From the NCBI GenBank assembly GCA_945870425.1, contig CAMBSD010000002.1:62001-126000 (forward strand): a DNA stretch of 64,000 bases. The letters run 5' to 3'. Below, piece after piece: positions 6,793 to 15,049 of this stretch. Each line of letters opens with the position of its first letter. The first letter of the stretch is position 1. This stretch comes from Chitinophaga pinensis. Its GTDB lineage: Bacteria; Bacteroidota; Bacteroidia; UKL13-3. Below the pieces are notes generated by a model. That model was given only the letters and a program-made list of their open reading frames with translations, was not told where the DNA came from and did not search any database. Position numbers and translations under genes: made by a program.

Positions 6793-6813
6793 TTTGGAAT
6801 TACCATAGCCCTT

Positions 6814-6853
6814 AGTTCTCGCAAGTGTTAAGCAAGGCGTCACTTGTGAGAAT
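6814..6853. repeat. 40-bp repeat, copy A (hairpin-forming)
   Basis: The copy starts AGTTCTCGCAAG and ends CACTTGTGAGAAT. Its arms TTCTCgCAAGTG (6816-6827) and CACTTGtGAGAA (6841-6852) pair at 11 of 12 positions around the 13-base loop TTAAGCAAGGCGT. It matches copy B at 7724-7763 in 34 of 40 positions by direct reading. It lies 21 bases after the LamG stop but has no T-run, so it is not an ordinary terminator. Confidence 0.75.
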
Positions 6854-7002
6854 TGCAATTCAAAGTTTGCAACATATAAAAAAATAGCCAACAAACTTCT
6901 TGTAATCTGTAGTCTCCAAACGATGCCTTTGCTTCAGACAACAGATAGTTCCGCATCACCGTTAGGCAATTACACTGCCAAAATAAATTTTTAATTCAAC
7001 AA

Positions 7003-7018
7003 AAAAATACGTATTTTT
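7003..7018. promoter_or_regulatory. Perfect 16-bp palindrome upstream of the antitoxin gene
   Basis: AAAAATACGTATTTTT is fully self-complementary and ends 21 bases before the ATG of the antitoxin gene. A second palindrome, ACACGTGT (7031-7038), sits directly before the start, with its centre 24 bases away. Both have ACGT at the core. VapBC-type operons are usually autorepressed by the antitoxin or complex at such inverted repeats, so these are candidate operators. Confidence 0.45.
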
Positions 7019-7039
7019 ATTCGAAAATTTACACGTGTT

Positions 7040-7285
7040 ATGATAAGCAAACTAACATTGACAATAGATGACTCGGTAATATCTGTTGCAAAAAAATACG
7101 CTAAACAAAAAGGGAAGAGCCTATCTGCCATAGTGGAAAATTACCTTATGTCGATAAGCTCAAAAGAAATTAAAGAAGAAAGTATTTCACCTAGCATATT
7201 AAAACTGATGGGTGCTATTGAATTGCACGAAAACTTTGACTATAAAAAAGAATTAAGGAAGGGTATTGCAAAAAAACATACATAA
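7040..7285 (+). CDS. VapB-like antitoxin, DUF6364-type
   Basis: This 81-residue protein opens with LTLTIDDSVISVAKKYAKQKGKSLSAIVENYL. That is the short beta-strand plus two-helix layout of DUF6364 / ribbon-helix-helix-like antitoxins found upstream of PIN toxins in Bacteroidetes. The C-terminal part (SPSILKLMGAIEL ... DYKKELRKGIAKKH) is the usual toxin-binding tail. Its TAA overlaps the toxin ATG by one base (TAATG), showing translational coupling. Candidate autoregulatory palindromes lie immediately upstream. The role is inferred from arrangement and sequence type. Confidence 0.8.
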   Translation: MISKLTLTIDDSVISVAKKYAKQKGKSLSAIVENYLMSISSKEIKEESISPSILKLMGAIELHENFDYKKELRKGIAKKHT

Positions 7286-7707
7286 TGAAAAGTATTTTCA
7301 TCGACACTAATGTGATAATTGATTTCTTTGCTAACCGAAAACCCTTTTCGATAGAGGCTGCTTTACTTTTTAATTATTCCTTTAATAAGAAAATTAATAT
7401 TTATATCTCAGCCGTTTCATATAACAATATTTATTACATACTACGACAATCATGTTCGCATACGGAAACAATTAAAATGTTAACGGAACTAAATGAATGG
7501 ACGGATACAGTAGAGGTTTCTAAAGACATCATAAACAAATCTCTTAAGTCGAATTTTAAAGACATTGAAGATGCTATTCAATACAATTGCGCCAAATCTT
7601 TAAAAAAAATTGACTTCATTGTTACACGTGATACGAAAGACTTTAAAACAAGTTCAATACCAATACTTACACCCAACGAAGCCGTTACTGTAATCGAAAG
7701 TTCCTAA
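7285..7707 (+). CDS. PIN-domain toxin (VapC-like RNase)
   Basis: This 140-residue protein has a complete set of PIN acidic residues: Asp in IFIDTNVIIDF near the start, Glu in SIEAALLF, Asp in DIEDAIQYNCA and Asp in FIVTRDTKDF. PIN toxins are Mg-dependent endoribonucleases, often cutting tRNA or rRNA, held in check by the co-encoded antitoxin. It overlaps the antitoxin stop by one base. Length is normal for the family. Seventeen bases after the stop lies copy B of the 40-bp repeat, so the pair is bracketed by repeats. The actual RNA target cannot be told from sequence. Confidence 0.88.
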   Translation: MKSIFIDTNVIIDFFANRKPFSIEAALLFNYSFNKKINIYISAVSYNNIYYILRQSCSHTETIKMLTELNEWTDTVEVSKDIINKSLKSNFKDIEDAIQYNCAKSLKKIDFIVTRDTKDFKTSSIPILTPNEAVTVIESS

Positions 7708-7723
7708 GGGTTCCATTGTGCAA

Positions 7724-7763
7724 AGTTCTCGCAAGTTTTAAGCAAAGCGTTATTTAGGAGAAT
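7724..7763. repeat. 40-bp repeat, copy B
   Basis: This is the second copy of the element at 6814-6853, in the same orientation and 910 bases away start to start. It begins AGTTCTCGCAAG, keeps the TTAAGCAA.GCGT centre and ends GGAGAAT. Six differences from copy A fall mostly in the 3' arm and weaken its hairpin. Together the copies bracket the antitoxin/toxin pair as direct repeats. Confidence 0.7.
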
Positions 7764-7878
7764 AGATAAAAAAAGTTTGTGTCTTTGGGTACCGAATTAT
7801 CCTCAAAGTGAGTGCTGTGATTTGTCCAAATTCTACACTTGTATTTTGGGTAGAAAACACTATTTTTACAAAACAAAA

Positions 7879-8010
7879 ATGTTCAATCAAAAAATACAAA
7901 AAAATGCGGTAAGAGTTGTTAGTCGCGCAAAAGCTGACGATGATGATATTTTATTTTGGCTGAATAAAACCCCTGCTGAACGACTAAGTGCATTAGAAGA
8001 AATACGTTAA
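7879..8010 (+). CDS. Small partner protein of a nucleotidyltransferase module
   Basis: The ATG at 7879 gives a 43-residue protein rich in charged residues, with DDDDILFWLNKTPAERLSALEEIR at its end. Short proteins ending in an ERL.A.E.LR-type helix commonly precede nucleotidyltransferase genes in Bacteroidetes and are thought to act as partners, possibly antitoxins. The open frame reaches back to 7777, but that part does not look coded. The downstream gene begins 19 bases later. The family link is from recall, so the function is uncertain. Confidence 0.6.
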   Translation: MFNQKIQKNAVRVVSRAKADDDDILFWLNKTPAERLSALEEIR

Positions 8011-8029
8011 TCATACAACGATTGGAAAT

Positions 8030-8491
8030 ATGGAACTGAGCAACGATTTCAAAGAGTTTATAGAATTATTAAACGTAAATAAAGTTAAATATTTAGTTGT
8101 AGGTGGATACGCTGTGGGGTTTCACGGCTATCCTCGGTATACAAAAGACATTGACTTGTGGGTGCTTATGAAATCTAATAATGCATCAAATATTATAAAA
8201 TCTGTAAAAGAATTTGGTTTTGAATCCTTAGGTCTAGAAGAAGAAGATTTTTTAAATTCAGATAATATAATTCAATTGGGCTTTCCTCCAAATAGGATTG
8301 TTTTATTAACTGAAATAGCTGGTGTAGAATTTGAATCCTGCTATTCAAATAAATTAACAATAGAATTTGAAGGGGTAACCATTCCATTTATTTCTTTAAA
8401 TGATTTAATTAAAAACAAGCAATCATCAGGAAGACTTCAAGATTTAGCCGATGCAGAAAAATTAGAGAAACTGAAAAAGCAAAAATATTAG
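8030..8491 (+). CDS. Nucleotidyltransferase-fold protein (DUF6036/MNT-like)
   Basis: This 153-residue protein has the Pol-beta-type nucleotidyltransferase signature. KYLVVGGYAVGFHG provides the GG motif, and RYTKDIDLWV provides the two catalytic Asp residues two positions apart. FISLNDLIKNKQSSGRLQDLADAEKL is the typical C-terminal helix of this group. Related proteins are AbiEii/MNT-type toxins or minimal nucleotidyltransferases that modify tRNA or a partner protein. With the small gene at 7879 it forms a likely two-gene toxin-antitoxin-like module. Substrate and true role are unknown. Confidence 0.8.
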   Translation: MELSNDFKEFIELLNVNKVKYLVVGGYAVGFHGYPRYTKDIDLWVLMKSNNASNIIKSVKEFGFESLGLEEEDFLNSDNIIQLGFPPNRIVLLTEIAGVEFESCYSNKLTIEFEGVTIPFISLNDLIKNKQSSGRLQDLADAEKLEKLKKQKY

Positions 8492-8535
8492 GATTAAATC
8501 ACCTTAAAAAACTCTAGAAAGTGCCAAGCAAAACC

Positions 8536-9093
8536 CTAATTCCACCTTGGATCCAGCGGGGCATTGGCAAGGTGCTCAAAGTCCTTGCCTAGATGTTTAA
8601 CCAATACTCGCCACATATCTTCCAAATCATCTGTAAATAAAGTTTCTTTCTCACATTCACTCACCCACCAAGCTTTTTGTTCTATTTCATCATCCAATTG
8701 CCCATCAGTCCAACCGCTGTAACCTACAAAAAATTTGAAATTCTCAGGACTAGCCAAACGATTATCAATAGCATCATTTACCGAATTGATATTTCCTCCC
8801 CAATACAGCCCTTCGCAAATCTCTTCACAACCTTCGATTAAGTCGCCACAAGTATGAATAAAATGAAGGGTATTTTGTTCTACTGGACCACCATAATACA
8901 ATGGAAAATTATAGTTCAATAAATCGGGCACAAGCTCATCAGTATAGCTATTGAGCAAACGGTTTAGTACAAACCCTACCGCACCTTCATCGCTATACTG
9001 GCCAAGCAATATAACAGTACGATTAAACTCAGGATCGCTTAAAAAAGGCTCACTTATTAATATTCTACCTTTAGTTGGCAGCATTTTTTTCAT
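8536..9093 (-). CDS. yqgE: YqgE/AlgH family protein
   Basis: At 185 residues it has the full UPF0301 pattern: KGRILISEPFLSDPEFNRTVILL at the start, then GAVGFVLNR, YYGGPVEQNTLHFIH, YWGGN, FKFFVGYSGWTDGQLDDEI and a WR..L..LG tail. The family is widely conserved, but its biochemical role is not firmly established; in pseudomonads AlgH is linked to alginate and virulence regulation. The ATG at 9093 is used (ATG at 9084 is an alternative). A TACTTTTG -7 element is present at 9116-9123 on this strand. It is divergent from pdxH. Confidence 0.95.
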   Translation of the reverse strand: MKKMLPTKGRILISEPFLSDPEFNRTVILLGQYSDEGAVGFVLNRLLNSYTDELVPDLLNYNFPLYYGGPVEQNTLHFIHTCGDLIEGCEEICEGLYWGGNINSVNDAIDNRLASPENFKFFVGYSGWTDGQLDDEIEQKAWWVSECEKETLFTDDLEDMWRVLVKHLGKDFEHLANAPLDPRWN

Positions 9094-9174
9094 TTATCTA
9101 ATCTGTTTGTTAGGTCAAAAGTAATATTTATTTGTTCTAAAATATGCTTCATTATTGTTAATTTCGAGGCGCGT

Positions 9175-9825
9175 ATGGAATCTTCAAATATCAACATTGC
9201 AGCTATCAGAAAGGATTATACCTTGAAGAGTTTTTCGGAAAGTGATTTATTGAAAAACCCTTTCGACCAATTTAGGGTTTGGTTTACCGAGGCCATTCAT
9301 GCCGAAGTGAATGAACCCAATGCCATGACATTGGCTACGGTGAAGCCAGATGGCTGTCCCACGGCTCGCATAGTGCTATTAAAAGGACTTGAAGATGACT
9401 GCTTTGTTTTTTTTACAAACTACAGCAGCAACAAAGGGCAACAAATAGGCGTCAATAACAAAGTGGCTTTGGTTTTCTTTTGGCCCGAACTAGAGAGACA
9501 AGTAAGAATTGAAGGAATAGCGGAAAAATTAGAAGACTATAAATCCGATGAATATTTCAAAAGCAGACCACTCGCAAGTCAGATTGGAGCGCATGCCTCA
9601 CCTCAAAGTCAAGAGATTGAAAATAGGCAATATTTAGAAGATTTGGTAATAAAAATGGGTGAGCTATTTTCAGAAAAACCCATTATCAGGCCAAATTTTT
9701 GGGGAGGTTTTAAGGTTACTGCCCATTCATTTGAATTTTGGCAAGGACGAAGCAGCCGCCTTCACGACCGATTTATATTCAGAAAGTCTAATAATGAGTG
9801 GCTTGCAAAAAGACTTGCACCTTAG
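9175..9825 (+). CDS. pdxH: Pyridoxamine/pyridoxine 5'-phosphate oxidase
   Basis: This FMN enzyme oxidises pyridoxamine- or pyridoxine-5'-phosphate to pyridoxal phosphate, the last step of B6 synthesis and salvage. The 216-residue protein carries MTLATVKPDGCPTARIVLLKG and FVFFTNYSSNKGQQI, which contact FMN. It also has VRIEGIAEKL, SRPLASQIGAHAS and the C-terminal signature FWQGRSSRLHDRFIF followed by WLAKRLAP. Length and all blocks are normal. The ATG at 9175 gives the usual N-terminus (IRKDYTLKSFSESDLL). Confidence 0.97.
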   Translation: MESSNINIAAIRKDYTLKSFSESDLLKNPFDQFRVWFTEAIHAEVNEPNAMTLATVKPDGCPTARIVLLKGLEDDCFVFFTNYSSNKGQQIGVNNKVALVFFWPELERQVRIEGIAEKLEDYKSDEYFKSRPLASQIGAHASPQSQEIENRQYLEDLVIKMGELFSEKPIIRPNFWGGFKVTAHSFEFWQGRSSRLHDRFIFRKSNNEWLAKRLAP

Positions 9826-9892
9826 TAACAATAAATTAATGCAGTATCATTAATTTGATATTGTTTTTAATAACCATTTAGAACAAAAACGG

Positions 9893-11005
9893 ATGATAAA
9901 CATTGTACTGATTTTAGCTTCCTCTTTCATCATGAGTGTTTTTGCAATGCCTTCAATCATTACGATGGCCAAGCTTTTAGGATTATATGACAAGCCCAAT
10001 AGTCGAAAACTACATACAACCAAAATCCCACGTTTGGGGGGCATTGGTATATTTGTTTCATTTTTATTGAGCATTTGGTTTGTTATACCAGACCAAAGTC
10101 TTCCCAATGCTCGCTTTTTGTATAGTGCCTTGCTTTTGCTTTTCTTCTCAGGATTGAAGGACGATATTGTTGTGATGTCGCCCATTAATAAACTTCTTAT
10201 ACAATTGTTCGCAGCCAGTCTTATAACGATTGGACAGGGTATCACCATTGATCATTTTCATGGAATATTGGGCATTAATGAAATCACATATCCGGCCAGC
10301 ATAGCATTGAGTATTTTCACCATCATAGTTATCACCAATTCAATAAATCTTATTGATGGTGTGGATGGTCTGGCAGGGGGAATAGGTTTTATTACCGCTT
10401 TGGCATTTGCCCTTTGGTTTAATAATATTGGACAATCAGGTTTTGCCTTGATGGCATTTGCTTTATCAGGTGCCTTATTAGGCTTTTTACTTTTTAATTT
10501 CAATCCAGCCAAAATATTTATGGGGGATGCTGGGTCATTAACAGTAGGATTTTTACTCTCTATTTTCGCTATCAAATTTATATCTATCAACTCCCCTATT
10601 TCAAATTTCGAAAATAAAATTTTATCAGCACCCGCCATTGCAATTTCCATTTTGATTGTGCCCTTATACGACACATTGAGGGTATTTATCATAAGAACCA
10701 TCAAGCGTAAATCTCCTTTTGTAGCCGATAGAAACCACGTTCATCATATCCTTTTAAAAATTGGTTTAAACCACAAAATGGTTTGCTACACGCTATATGC
10801 CATTAGTATTTTATTCGCTACCACAGCCATCTTGATTAAGGAAAATCCAAGTTATATCGTTTTATCCATTATTGTAGGAATGGCATTGGTGGTAGGGCAA
10901 TTACCAGTATATTTATACAGACATCGCCTAGCAGATTTAGAGGTAGAAGAAAACATTATCAATTTTGAAAACGATATTAATCCTGCTAAAAATCAAAAAA
11001 AATAG
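9893..11005 (+). CDS. wecA: WecA/TagO-type polyprenyl-phosphate sugar-1-phosphate transferase
   Basis: This integral-membrane enzyme of the MraY/WecA superfamily transfers a sugar-1-phosphate, usually GlcNAc-1-P, from a UDP-sugar to undecaprenyl phosphate and so starts a surface polysaccharide. The 370 residues show about ten hydrophobic helices. Asp90-Asp91 lie in LKDDIVVM, with NLIDGVDGLAGG at about 152-163. FNFNPAKIFMGDAGS follows, then a cytoplasmic RNHVHHILLKIGL loop with the His motif. The exact sugar cannot be read from sequence. The next gene starts three bases after its stop, so they form an operon. Confidence 0.92.
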   Translation: MINIVLILASSFIMSVFAMPSIITMAKLLGLYDKPNSRKLHTTKIPRLGGIGIFVSFLLSIWFVIPDQSLPNARFLYSALLLLFFSGLKDDIVVMSPINKLLIQLFAASLITIGQGITIDHFHGILGINEITYPASIALSIFTIIVITNSINLIDGVDGLAGGIGFITALAFALWFNNIGQSGFALMAFALSGALLGFLLFNFNPAKIFMGDAGSLTVGFLLSIFAIKFISINSPISNFENKILSAPAIAISILIVPLYDTLRVFIIRTIKRKSPFVADRNHVHHILLKIGLNHKMVCYTLYAISILFATTAILIKENPSYIVLSIIVGMALVVGQLPVYLYRHRLADLEVEENIINFENDINPAKNQKK

Positions 11006-11008
11006 GCC

Positions 11009-12115
11009 ATGTCGTTTCATTTATGCGATTCACTAACTCAGGAAAAACTGGATTCAAACTACACAAACTTTCTTAGCCCTAAAGGCAACCTTATTAACCT
11101 GAAAAACAAACAGGACTTTGAAATAAATAGTAGTAAACATACTCTATGGAGATACAGAAAAGCTATACCCATTCAAAACGACAATTGCATCGTTTCGATG
11201 GATGAAGGCTATACAGCACTCACAAAAATTCAGTTTAAAAATGGCGAAGCCTTAATCAAACAAGAACAACTCTTTAGCACAGGAAGCTACAAAGACAGGG
11301 GGGCCTCAGTATTAATCAGCAGGGTTAAAGAGATAGGGGTTACAGAAATTGTACAAGATAGTAGTGGAAATGCAGGTTGCGCCATAGCTGCTTATGCTGC
11401 CCTTGCAGGCATCACTTGCCACATCTACCTACCATCAGACACTTCAGACGCAAAAGTGGCGCAAATGCGGGCTTATGGGGCCAATATCATAAGAGTTGAA
11501 GGCGACAGAGAAGCAACTGCCCTCGCAGCCAAGGAAGCGGCTCAAAAAATATATTATGCCAGCCATTGTTATAATCCATGGTTTTTTGAAGGCACCAAGA
11601 CTTTTGCTTTCGAGCTTTGTGAACAATTAAATTGGCGAGCACCCGATACAGTTGTTGTCCCTGCAGGTAATGGCACTTTAGTTATAGGTTGCCAAATAGG
11701 ATTTAATCAACTTTTTGCTGCCAATAGAATTAATAAAATTCCAAAAATCATAGCTATACAAAGTGTCAATTGTGCTGCTTTGGCTCAAATGTTTGATGAG
11801 AATTTGGATGAAATTCCTAAGATTTCAAAACAAACTACCTTAGCGGAAGGGATTGCTATTGCAGAACCTGTAAGAGCCAAACAAATCATAACAGCAGTGA
11901 AAGAAAGCAAGGGTCATTTCATATCAGTAAGTGAATTAGAAATTATTGAAGCACTAAAATACACAGCACGAATGGGCTATTTTATTGAACCTACATCCGC
12001 AGCGACTATTGCAGGTTTGGAAAAATACATGAGTAAACATAAAAATGAAATCGTAGTATCCTTATTCAGTGGACATGGTTTGAAATCCATAGATAAATGG
12101 ATGAAATTACTTTAA
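11009..12115 (+). CDS. Threonine synthase-like PLP enzyme
   Basis: This 368-residue fold-type II PLP enzyme has the PLP lysine (Lys95) in FSTGSYKDRGA. It also has the substrate/phosphate loop SSGNAGCAIAAYAA, the Gly-rich PLP phosphate loop VPAGNGTLVIG, and a late FIEPTSAATIAGL block. These match threonine synthase and the related threonine dehydratase/cysteine synthase group. Threonine synthase converts O-phosphohomoserine to threonine. A shorter N-terminus than E. coli ThrC and the lack of neighbouring thr genes leave the precise reaction open. It overlaps the hydrolase gene by nine bases, tail to tail. Confidence 0.85.
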   Translation: MSFHLCDSLTQEKLDSNYTNFLSPKGNLINLKNKQDFEINSSKHTLWRYRKAIPIQNDNCIVSMDEGYTALTKIQFKNGEALIKQEQLFSTGSYKDRGASVLISRVKEIGVTEIVQDSSGNAGCAIAAYAALAGITCHIYLPSDTSDAKVAQMRAYGANIIRVEGDREATALAAKEAAQKIYYASHCYNPWFFEGTKTFAFELCEQLNWRAPDTVVVPAGNGTLVIGCQIGFNQLFAANRINKIPKIIAIQSVNCAALAQMFDENLDEIPKISKQTTLAEGIAIAEPVRAKQIITAVKESKGHFISVSELEIIEALKYTARMGYFIEPTSAATIAGLEKYMSKHKNEIVVSLFSGHGLKSIDKWMKLL

Positions 12116-12871
12116 TACCCTATCACAAAATTTGATTATGGCATTTGAAAGTTTAACTGGTTCTTCCAACATTCCACAATGTGAAGATTGCTCCAAGTAG
12201 CATATTTCAGATTGTTTGCAACTAGATGCTTGTTTTAACATATCCGTTTCTGTAATAAGCGTATCGTATTTACCAACCGCAAAAAACATGGGTAAATCAG
12301 TATTTATCAAATAGGCCTCTTGATTTTTTCTAAGCATCATGACTTTTACTGCTTCTATTATCCCTATCTGTGAACCATTTTTAGCCTCTTCTAATAGCAT
12401 GTCACAAGCCTCTTTGTGATAGTCTCTATCCATAAAAAGCGTTGGAATAAAATTATCGATATAAACCTCTTTACCATTCTGCTCAATAAACTTAATAACC
12501 TGTTTTCTCTTTTCAAGTCGCTCCATATTATCAGCCAAAGCAGTTGAATGCAATAGGCCAATAGCATATAAATGTTGAGGGTATTTATTGGCAAAAGCAA
12601 GTGTCACATAACCTCCCATAGAATGTCCAAGCATCACACATTTGTTAATATTTAAATGATCTAATAACTCTTTCAAGCAGTCAACAAACATTTCCATGCT
12701 TGAATTCTCTATACATTCGCTAGCACCAAATCCTGGTAAGTCAGGACAAATAACTTTATATTGTTTGCTTAATGAAGACCCAATTGAATTGAAACAAGAA
12801 TGATTTTCGCAAAAGCCATGAATAAGAACAATGCTATGCATTGAACTACCTGAAATGTGATGATGTAGCAT
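12107..12871 (-). CDS. Alpha/beta hydrolase
   Basis: The start at ATG 12871 gives MLHHHISGSS followed by IVLIHGFCENHS, the oxyanion-hole strand of alpha/beta hydrolases. An upstream ATG at 12910 lies inside the ppiD terminator hairpin and is rejected. The nucleophile Ser84 is in MLGHSMGGYVTLAF. The acid is probably Asp in VGKYDTLI and the base His in SSHCGMLEEP. About 254 residues with a helical cap is normal. The family includes esterases, MenH-like and carboxylesterase enzymes; the substrate is unknown. It lies downstream of ppiD on the same strand, beyond a strong terminator. Confidence 0.88.
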   Translation of the reverse strand: MLHHHISGSSMHSIVLIHGFCENHSCFNSIGSSLSKQYKVICPDLPGFGASECIENSSMEMFVDCLKELLDHLNINKCVMLGHSMGGYVTLAFANKYPQHLYAIGLLHSTALADNMERLEKRKQVIKFIEQNGKEVYIDNFIPTLFMDRDYHKEACDMLLEEAKNGSQIGIIEAVKVMMLRKNQEAYLINTDLPMFFAVGKYDTLITETDMLKQASSCKQSEICYLEQSSHCGMLEEPVKLSNAIIKFCDRVLK

Positions 12872-12884
12872 GACACAAAAATAA

Positions 12885-12912
12885 AAATGCCACCCAATAT
12901 TGGGTGGCATTT
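12885..12912 (-). terminator. Terminator of ppiD
   Basis: AAATGCCACCCAAT is followed directly by its exact reverse complement ATTGGGTGGCATTT, making a perfect 28-bp inverted repeat. Read on the minus strand, T-rich sequence follows. It lies 22 bases past the ppiD stop. Confidence 0.85.
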
Positions 12913-12934
12913 CTTTATTATTATTTAATTTGTT

Positions 12935-15049
12935 CTAGAAGAATTTGAATCTAAAATCTTTTACACCCTTAATGTCTTTTAATGCTTCAAGATAACCGTA
13001 TTCCATTCTCTGTCTTACACCATTATCCATTTCACTTTTGTATTGCGCATAATCTTTGATTACAGGAGCATCGTTAAACTTATTAATCATAAATACATAA
13101 ACTGCGGCATCTCCTTTAACAGGACCGGATAATTTACCCGCAGTTGAACCAAAAACAGTTCCACCAAATACATTATCAGCGCCAACATTAGCAAAGAAAG
13201 GGTTTTCCAAATTCAATGAACTTGTGGGTACAATTGGCGTATTTAATTTTTTACTCACAGCATCCAAGGTTGTGGCACCTTCTAATGCTGTTTTCGCTTT
13301 TTCAATTAATTGCTCAGCTTTTTTATCTTTTCTATAATCCGCTTCCACTCTTGTTTTAGCTGATTCAAAACTTGCTTTGTCTTTTTCTTTGATATCTTTC
13401 ACCACAGCAATAATGTATTTATCACCAACTGTAAATACTTCGCTTACATCCCCAATATTTGCTGTATTAGCCCATTGAACAACTGAACGCGCGTCATTAT
13501 AACCAGGAAGGTAGGTATCAGTTTCTCTTACATATTCAGCAATACGCTTTTCTAATTTTCTTTCAGCCACATTTTTATCAAACTCATCAGCACTAGTTGA
13601 AGCAGAAGCAAATTGACTTGCATCATTGAATGCACGATTTAATGTTTGCTCACTTGGCTCAATAGCTCTTTCAAGTATACCAGCACAAACTAATCTCTTA
13701 GATTTGTTATCGGTAATCTTGACAATATGCCATCCAAACTGCGTTTTAACCAATTTCAAATCGCCTTTAGTGCCTTCTTTAACAGCTTTGTTAAATTCAG
13801 GGACCATCTGTCCTTCAGCAAACCAACCTAAATCACCACCTTTGTCTTTCGTTCCATCTGTACCAAAAGTTGAAGCTGTAACTGCAAAATCTGCACCATT
13901 TTTCAAATTACGCAACACTTCCTCAGCTTTTACTTTACTTTTCAATGTATCTTCAGCAGTTGGGCCATCAACTTTGAAAAGAATGTGGCTTGCATGCATA
14001 TAATAAATAGTATCTTCTTTCACTCCTGAAATTTTATATATTTTATATTTACCATCTTTAAAAATTGGACCAATTACCGAACCAATAGAATCAGAGAATA
14101 ATTTTCCAACGATCTCTTCAGGGAAGGAACCACGTGGTTTAGCAATTGGATCAAATTTAGCATCACCATTATTATCTGCATAAACAGTGTCATTTTTAGC
14201 TAACTTAAATTGTTCAGCTTGGTCTGCAGCCCATTTGCGAGCAACAGCACTATCGTCAGGGGTTGGTGCAAAATCCCAAACCACGAATTCTACCTTACGG
14301 CTATTTTCTCTTTCTTTGTATTTGTTTTGGTTTGCTCGGAAGTACGACTTCAAATCGCTCTCTTCAGCATTAATGGTACTGTCAGCAATTTGATTGTATG
14401 GCAATGCTAATAAGTTTAATTCCGCTGTACGGGTACGATTTGTATATAGATTTTTTGCCTCAAGAGATGTAACATAAGTTCCTTTTTTAATTAAGTTGGT
14501 GTATTTACGCGTGAAGGCATCTTGAACCAAATAATCTTCATATTGCTTCCATTGTTTTTTACCTTTCTCATCGCCATTATCAGTTAATTGTTTCAAATAA
14601 CGTTTTACATTATTTTTATCAAAAGCACCTGTTTTTGGATCTGTAAAACTTTGGATGATATTGGCATTGATATTATCGCCATAAATCATATCTTCTAATT
14701 CTTCATTGCTAACAGCAATACCTAATTCTTTATATTCTTTAGCCATCAAGTTATCCTGCAATAACTGATTCCAAACTTGGTCTCTTAATTGATTTCTGGT
14801 ATTATCATCAATTGGTTGATTCGGATTACGGTCCTTCATGATTTGCTCTTGCTCATCATATTTTTGTTGAAAAAGCTTAATGCCCACCTTTTCGCCTGCT
14901 ATTTCGCCCACGGTACTTGAGTTTCCTTTGCCACCAAAAATAGCTGTGTTGCTATTTAGCGCATCTGAAATTACAAAAAGAGCCAGTGCTAATCCTACAA
15001 AGCCAACAGCTAATCCTGATCTGTTTCTAATTTTGGTTAATATTGCCAT
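12935..15049 (-). CDS. ppiD: PpiD/SurA-like membrane-anchored peptidyl-prolyl isomerase
   Basis: This 704-residue periplasmic folding factor for outer-membrane proteins has one N-terminal membrane anchor (about residues 12-30, GLAVGFVGLALALFVISDAL). A SurA_N-like chaperone region of helices spans about 40-250. A parvulin rotamase domain spans about 350-447, marked by HASHILFKVDG, GADFAVTASTFGTDG, KGGDLGWFAEGQMVPEF and TQFGWHIVKI. A second, degenerate isomerase-like region follows. This matches the PpiD architecture, though Bacteroidetes often annotate it as SurA. A consensus promoter lies at 15071-15102. Confidence 0.93.
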   Translation of the reverse strand: MAILTKIRNRSGLAVGFVGLALALFVISDALNSNTAIFGGKGNSSTVGEIAGEKVGIKLFQQKYDEQEQIMKDRNPNQPIDDNTRNQLRDQVWNQLLQDNLMAKEYKELGIAVSNEELEDMIYGDNINANIIQSFTDPKTGAFDKNNVKRYLKQLTDNGDEKGKKQWKQYEDYLVQDAFTRKYTNLIKKGTYVTSLEAKNLYTNRTRTAELNLLALPYNQIADSTINAEESDLKSYFRANQNKYKERENSRKVEFVVWDFAPTPDDSAVARKWAADQAEQFKLAKNDTVYADNNGDAKFDPIAKPRGSFPEEIVGKLFSDSIGSVIGPIFKDGKYKIYKISGVKEDTIYYMHASHILFKVDGPTAEDTLKSKVKAEEVLRNLKNGADFAVTASTFGTDGTKDKGGDLGWFAEGQMVPEFNKAVKEGTKGDLKLVKTQFGWHIVKITDNKSKRLVCAGILERAIEPSEQTLNRAFNDASQFASASTSADEFDKNVAERKLEKRIAEYVRETDTYLPGYNDARSVVQWANTANIGDVSEVFTVGDKYIIAVVKDIKEKDKASFESAKTRVEADYRKDKKAEQLIEKAKTALEGATTLDAVSKKLNTPIVPTSSLNLENPFFANVGADNVFGGTVFGSTAGKLSGPVKGDAAVYVFMINKFNDAPVIKDYAQYKSEMDNGVRQRMEYGYLEALKDIKGVKDFRFKFF

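Follow-up and report, generated by a model that had tools for sequence, protein, structure and literature searches.

In VapBC-type PIN systems, a small antitoxin gene overlaps the gene of the PIN toxin, and the acidic residues of the toxin are intact. The pair studied here resembles VapBC in its overlapping small antitoxin and PIN toxin genes, but differs from it in that the antitoxin is DUF6364. With regard to mobile palindromes, the sections of PMC6006769 on subclass 2.6 of the REP-associated tyrosine transposases (RAYTs) give the TnpA_REP signature as NH[LIV]H, WQ and YIH[QN]NP, mention genomes that have REPs but no transposase gene, and describe E. coli strains in which the REPtron is replaced by a toxin-antitoxin operon. 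With regard to cassettes, the relevant passages of PMC8618304, PMC9668308 and PMC2426708 list integrons for Bacteroidota and present toxin-antitoxin cassettes as common. In the portions that we cover of the literature on REPs flanking such modules and on Bacteroidetes/Bacteroidota/Chitinophaga integrons, we find no report of a REP-framed toxin-antitoxin cassette.

Here we analyse a window of 64,000 nucleotides from Chitinophaga pinensis (contig CAMBSD010000002.1, positions 62,001 to 126,000). The window's own genome is denoted G000 (2.96 Mb), the genome of a sister species in the same genus G001, another genus of the same family g6, and the REP family of the two window repeats, copies A and B, R1; the family sample comprises 64 genomes. 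Absences in the relatives are weak, because these are mostly metagenome-assembled genomes, some of them incomplete. The G001 contig C87 (L073; public record CANHJJ010000087.1) is 98% identical to window positions 6996-14000, and since it begins only at 6996, the left junction is known from one genome only. On the whole, we consider it probable that two independent kinds of mobile DNA overlap at this locus, an integron-type DUF6364/PIN_3 cassette and REPs copied later by a RAYT. The parts, orphan REPs of one family and a toxin-antitoxin cassette of integron type, are ordinary, and it is their overlap that is instructive. The features of the locus are as follows.

6813..6877, + strand: REP copy A, with hairpin arms 6816-6827 / 6841-6852, then a AAAGTTTG tail
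6905..6947, + strand: hairpin of a second REP family (ATCYGTAGTCT...AGAC-ACNGAT), whose arms match copies beside other REPs
6961..6967, + strand: GTTAGGC, the likely cassette 5' core (R' box position, G|TTRRRY); g6 homology begins about here
7040..7285, + strand: antitoxin gene, DUF6364 (PF19891, 9e-22), by Pfam
7285..7707, + strand: toxin gene, PIN_3 (PF13470, 6.5e-17), by Pfam
7703..7724, + strand: probable attC 5'-arm stub, with an R''-like CCTAA that covers the stop codon and after it ...TGCAAAG; truncated by copy B, as suggested by comparison with g6
7723..7787, + strand: REP copy B, decayed; the hairpin persists in the G001 orthologue

The sequence-only reading of this locus had described two direct 40-bp repeats that bracket a toxin-antitoxin pair, and our analysis confirms them. 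The 40-bp core of copies A and B is identical at 34/40 positions in direct reading, the wider alignment (6803-6869 against 7713-7779) has 75% identity over 67 nt, and the 25-mer core, which occurs twice in the window, is contained in 0/100 dinucleotide shuffles. The hairpin claimed for copy A is also found, with 11/12 Watson-Crick pairs between the arms (reached in 0/2000 mononucleotide shuffles) and a 12-bp fold of -11 kcal/mol (z -2.75, equalled by 2/200 shuffles). Copy B itself shows no hairpin in the window (z +0.94; 8/12 pairs, matched by 564/2000 shuffles); its orthologue in G001, with 10/12 pairs (5/2000 shuffles as good), still folds, and the window copy has therefore decayed. That the repeats are no target-site duplication, as had been held, is borne out. 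Several R1 copies are fused to the second REP family, which is also present in the 5' flank of a RAYT in L026, and the partner of copy A is the hairpin at 6905-6947. The latter was considered as an upstream attC and rejected, since its arms match those of the second REP family.

The view that the repeats are REP-like agrees well with their distribution. Searching G000 with the repeat by BLAST gives 12 matches, 1 of them spurious; L012, a partial match with E 2.09, is rejected as a REP copy. Eleven copies align without gaps across 65 columns, with a common stem in which 87.3% of cells are paired, above slid versions of the stem, and with a covariation score that is weak against shuffles (98/500). 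A covariance model built from these 11 detects 16 copies in G000 at E<=1, of which 15 reach E<=0.001; these 15 occupy 14 gaps, mostly between ordinary genes, with four pairs of copies within 3 kb against 0.21 expected. Of the 64 family genomes, 13 have R1 matches at E<=0.001, and most of these belong to genera g1 and g6. Only 1/74 REP matches overlaps an ORF of at least 150 aa, showing that the palindrome is mainly intergenic. By the refuting condition set in the sequence-only reading, copies scattered between genes with no link to cassettes, the distribution speaks against the repeats as ends of the pair: 11/14 R1 gaps in G000 adjoin no recognised toxin-antitoxin gene, with neighbours judged mostly by eye and few scanned with Pfam. 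Of the three gaps that do, two belong to the window pair and the third, on C5, has a PF09720 antitoxin as neighbour; near a fourth, on C7, an ORF 293 bp off resembles a member of a G001 gene pair, with no family above cut-off. Beside another REP (L017 and L076), G001 has a gene pair of which G000 shows the first ORF only, the partner frame seeming lost.

The link to RAYTs is seen in g6, where an intact 182-aa RAYT gene is flanked by R1 copies at three loci (L066, L106 and L108) and a truncated RAYT frame at L107. The L066 protein scores 98.6 with the model NF047646 REP_Tyr_transpos, whose cut-off is 80, and NHLH, WQ and YIHNNP can be read from it. In G000 no cognate RAYT is found, the best of its matches being 55% identical to the L066 RAYT and carrying an in-frame stop. 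As none of the 9 Y1_Tnp matches of G000 stands beside an R1 copy, the window repeats look like orphan REPs; several RAYT-like Y1_Tnp genes of this genome carry other hairpins in their flanks. R1 fits the 'atypical REPs' of Bacteroidetes subclass 2.6. With these, as treated in the relevant sections of PMC6006769, it shares the motifs of the 182-aa RAYT, the flanking hairpins, the scattered copies and REPs without the gene; it differs in having about 15 copies, no GTAG foot (none is found in R1, whose consensus foot is AGCTCTC), fusion with other REP families, and a cognate gene that is absent or broken. With the CGTC-tagged REPs, in the parts of PMC3733652 that describe them, R1 shares short palindromes near gene 3' ends in Bacteroidetes, but it has its GCGTC stretch in the loop region, and its copies flank RAYT genes in g6. 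In L201 and L210, a recombinase gene of the kind found in G018 adjoins a RAYT-like gene that has 35-36-bp inverted palindromes on its flanks.

The pair itself had been described as VapB-like/PIN. The PIN part stands, as PIN_3, while the antitoxin is DUF6364 and Pfam finds no VapB family in it. Four acidic residues of the toxin (D7, D93, E95 and D96) are invariant across 30 aligned toxins and D119 is present in 93%; with these residues intact, the DUF6364/PIN_3 pair should work as a PIN-RNase/antitoxin module. Three g6 genomes carry toxins 88% identical to that of the window, and their modules have about 84-85% DNA identity to the window module over 724-745 bp. For comparison, AlgH is 40-61% identical between genera, and it is not found in 10/10 g6 genomes. 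Plasmids give no match to the pair, and phages one record, at 38%. Around related pairs, 42 stretches searched for R1 give the sister record as sole match; an earlier search gave clear matches in the own and sister genomes only, and one more at E 0.87. The possibility that the REPs travel with the pair is accordingly rejected, since related pairs elsewhere occur without R1.

The pair likely starts with a core of the integron type at 6961 and ends in a stub resembling R'' at 7703. The upstream sequences differ between the three g6 genomes G068, G070 and G065, and each module opens with GTTA and then TAAGCAAGTGCGCGGC or TGTACAAGTGCGCAGC; the window reads GTTAGGCAATTACACTGCC at 6961. On the 3' side the window has CCTAAGGGTTCCATTGTGCAAA, which resembles the attC 5' arm of g6, and then REP B; the g6 modules have an attC-like hairpin in this place, of which the window keeps the 5' stub only, together with the start. 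Moreover, CCTAA (7703-7707) and TTAGG (6962-6966) are complementary over 5 bp, which is not the longest word found there in the complementarity test. This test covers 28 relatives and the window, leaving out the sister record L226, whose contig starts too late. In 8/28 relatives, the last toxin codon and the stop pair with a box that precedes the antitoxin by 72-86 bp, and the boxes covary (GCAGGTAAC/GTTACCTGC, CCACTAAC/GTTAGTGG, GCAGCTAA/TTAGCTGC); permuted partners equal this complementarity in 10/2000, a figure that ignores relatedness (L230 and L231 are near-identical). In the three g6 copies the pairing is limited to TAA/TTA. Judged from the sequences, the start/end pairing resembles that of the R' and R'' boxes of a cassette.

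Downstream of the g6 modules we find a long imperfect hairpin ending in GTTATG, an unrelated gene and a further hairpin, which is followed in 2/3 genomes by a MazF-type pair (PF02452 in L188) and in the third is not; this order of hairpins and genes gives a cassette-array layout. A 20-base motif from the 3' side of the attC-like hairpins is present in 43/64 genomes, with the reversed control nearly empty, and has 0 matches in G000. Out of 4 variable positions, the start of array cassettes agrees on average with their own R'' at 3.17 (6 cassettes) and with the upstream R'' at 1.0 (5 cassettes); a stricter criterion gave 2 cassettes for this comparison and a looser one 6. An arm pattern based on TTGCA was dropped, being found in 5/25 arms against 46/1250 random stretches, and the sequences show another arm, TAACAGCACCTAC. 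As for recombinases, the TIGR02249 cut-off is passed in 1/64 genomes, G044 (L223, G044:C58), where the match is split over two frames, and not in G000. The stretches L275-L282 (from G058, G061, G003, G005, G002 and G022), selected for this closeness, have a tyrosine recombinase at 0.3-3.2 kb from attC-like motifs. A scan of the recombinases of L276, L279 and L280 gives scores of 206-217, below the cut-off of 265, and the alignments leave out model positions ~180-238, which we take as the region of the IntI-specific domain. Compared with integron toxin-antitoxin cassettes as presented in the relevant passages of PMC8618304, the locus and its relatives share the two-gene module, the attC-like hairpin (in relatives), the GTTA core and a candidate pairing of the start with the own R''; unlike them, the window pair has lost its attC and shows no array alongside, and the recombinases near the arrays of its relatives are without the IntI-specific region. 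In G018 (L216, ~7200-9500, reverse complement), a long array of ~160-bp repeats lies directly upstream of a conserved ~347-aa recombinase; these repeats were considered as an attC array and set aside, as they look like satellite.

From the boundaries, the spread between genera and the attC-like hairpins on both sides in g6, all directly observed, we suggest that the pair arrived as a circle with two genes and one attC, which a recombinase would have inserted at the GTTA core. Later, palindromes copied by a RAYT, presumably a single-strand HUH/Y1 transposase of subclass 2.6, would have landed in the flanking gaps, copy A and the second REP upstream, and copy B 3' of the pair, about where the attC should lie. 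The dispersed copies and the g6 RAYT genes flanked by them point to a mover of the RAYT kind, and the simplest order would be the cassette first, then REP insertion and attC loss. With no attC left that we can recognise, the cassette has probably lost its mobility. Copies A and B are probably bystanders and not mobility signals of the pair. Of the earlier idea of a cassette, the mobile module thus remains, while a role of the repeats in delimiting or moving the pair is not supported, as the pair occurs without them in other genera and likely ends at 6961/7703.

It might be argued that the two direct REPs moved the pair as a unit, by a transposase or by recombination, as in an IS composite. Direct orientation on both sides of the window pair agrees with this, as does L066, where a DUF433/DUF5615 pair and one extra ORF lie between two direct R1 copies. 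The aminopeptidase/hexosaminidase site, where G065 has a DUF433/DUF5615 pair beside the orthologous REP and four g6 relatives have the REP alone, would agree too, but the REP there stands on one side of the pair only, and its junctions, with the filled and empty forms each common to two clades, fit gain or loss. As close relatives of the window pair lack the REP, the conserved module boundaries do not coincide with REP ends, and in L107 an ORF next to a DUF433/DUF5615-type pair appears to be broken by a RAYT-REP unit that came later, we regard such a composite as unlikely. Quite improbable is a gain or loss of toxin-antitoxin islets by ordinary recombination, with dispersed palindromes as homology: the window repeats are only 75% identical over 67 nt, and the pair is present in both genomes of the genus that have the window locus. 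The clustering of R1 copies in G000 speaks for it, and so does the uvrB site, where in G001 158-bp direct repeats (145/158 identical; L071 5478-6772) enclose a REP together with a PIN gene, and G000 (C7:10228-11389) has a single 158-bp copy with neither. The bracketing repeat there differs from R1, however; part of it belongs to another dispersed palindrome. The event is old, because the divergence between the two 158-bp copies is close to that between the two species at this locus, and the data fit gain or loss of the REP and PIN gene alike. A single-copy repeat in relatives without the module, which the sequence-only reading had named as a check, is present at these two other sites, with a different bracketing repeat at uvrB and a one-sided REP at the aminopeptidase site.

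Mere coincidence in a permissive intergenic region, with the GTTA start and the complementarity arising by chance, is very improbable; REPs do favour intergenic gaps and the complementarity at the window pair is short, but the shared start recurs in g6 after three different neighbours, and the attC-like arrays and the pairing with the own R'' stand against chance. A further reading, which we hold rather unlikely, is that the family has its own integron-like system, with VCR-like attC arrays and a Xer-type recombinase without the IntI-specific domain, and that single-strand RAYT elements insert into the folded attC, sealing toxin-antitoxin cassettes. If true, such insertion would turn mobile cassettes into fixed chromosomal ones; against it counts that 0/74 REP matches lie within 400 bp of the attC-like 3' motif, by which a general targeting of attC by REPs is rejected.

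The cassette overlain by later REPs, our preferred reading, carries a caution: direct repeats are not necessarily the ends of the small module that they frame, and it is the comparison across genera that moved the likely boundary. The sites above also provide clear Bacteroidota cases in which a toxin-antitoxin module next to palindromic repeats is there in one genome and missing in another, and the attC-like arrays form a concrete, testable set in a phylum for which, in the passages on integrons cited above, integrons are listed and little described. In addition, the next module in the window (7879-8491) consists of a small ORF and a DUF6036 nucleotidyltransferase; the small ORF is probably truncated, because a stop stands where G001 has a lysine codon.
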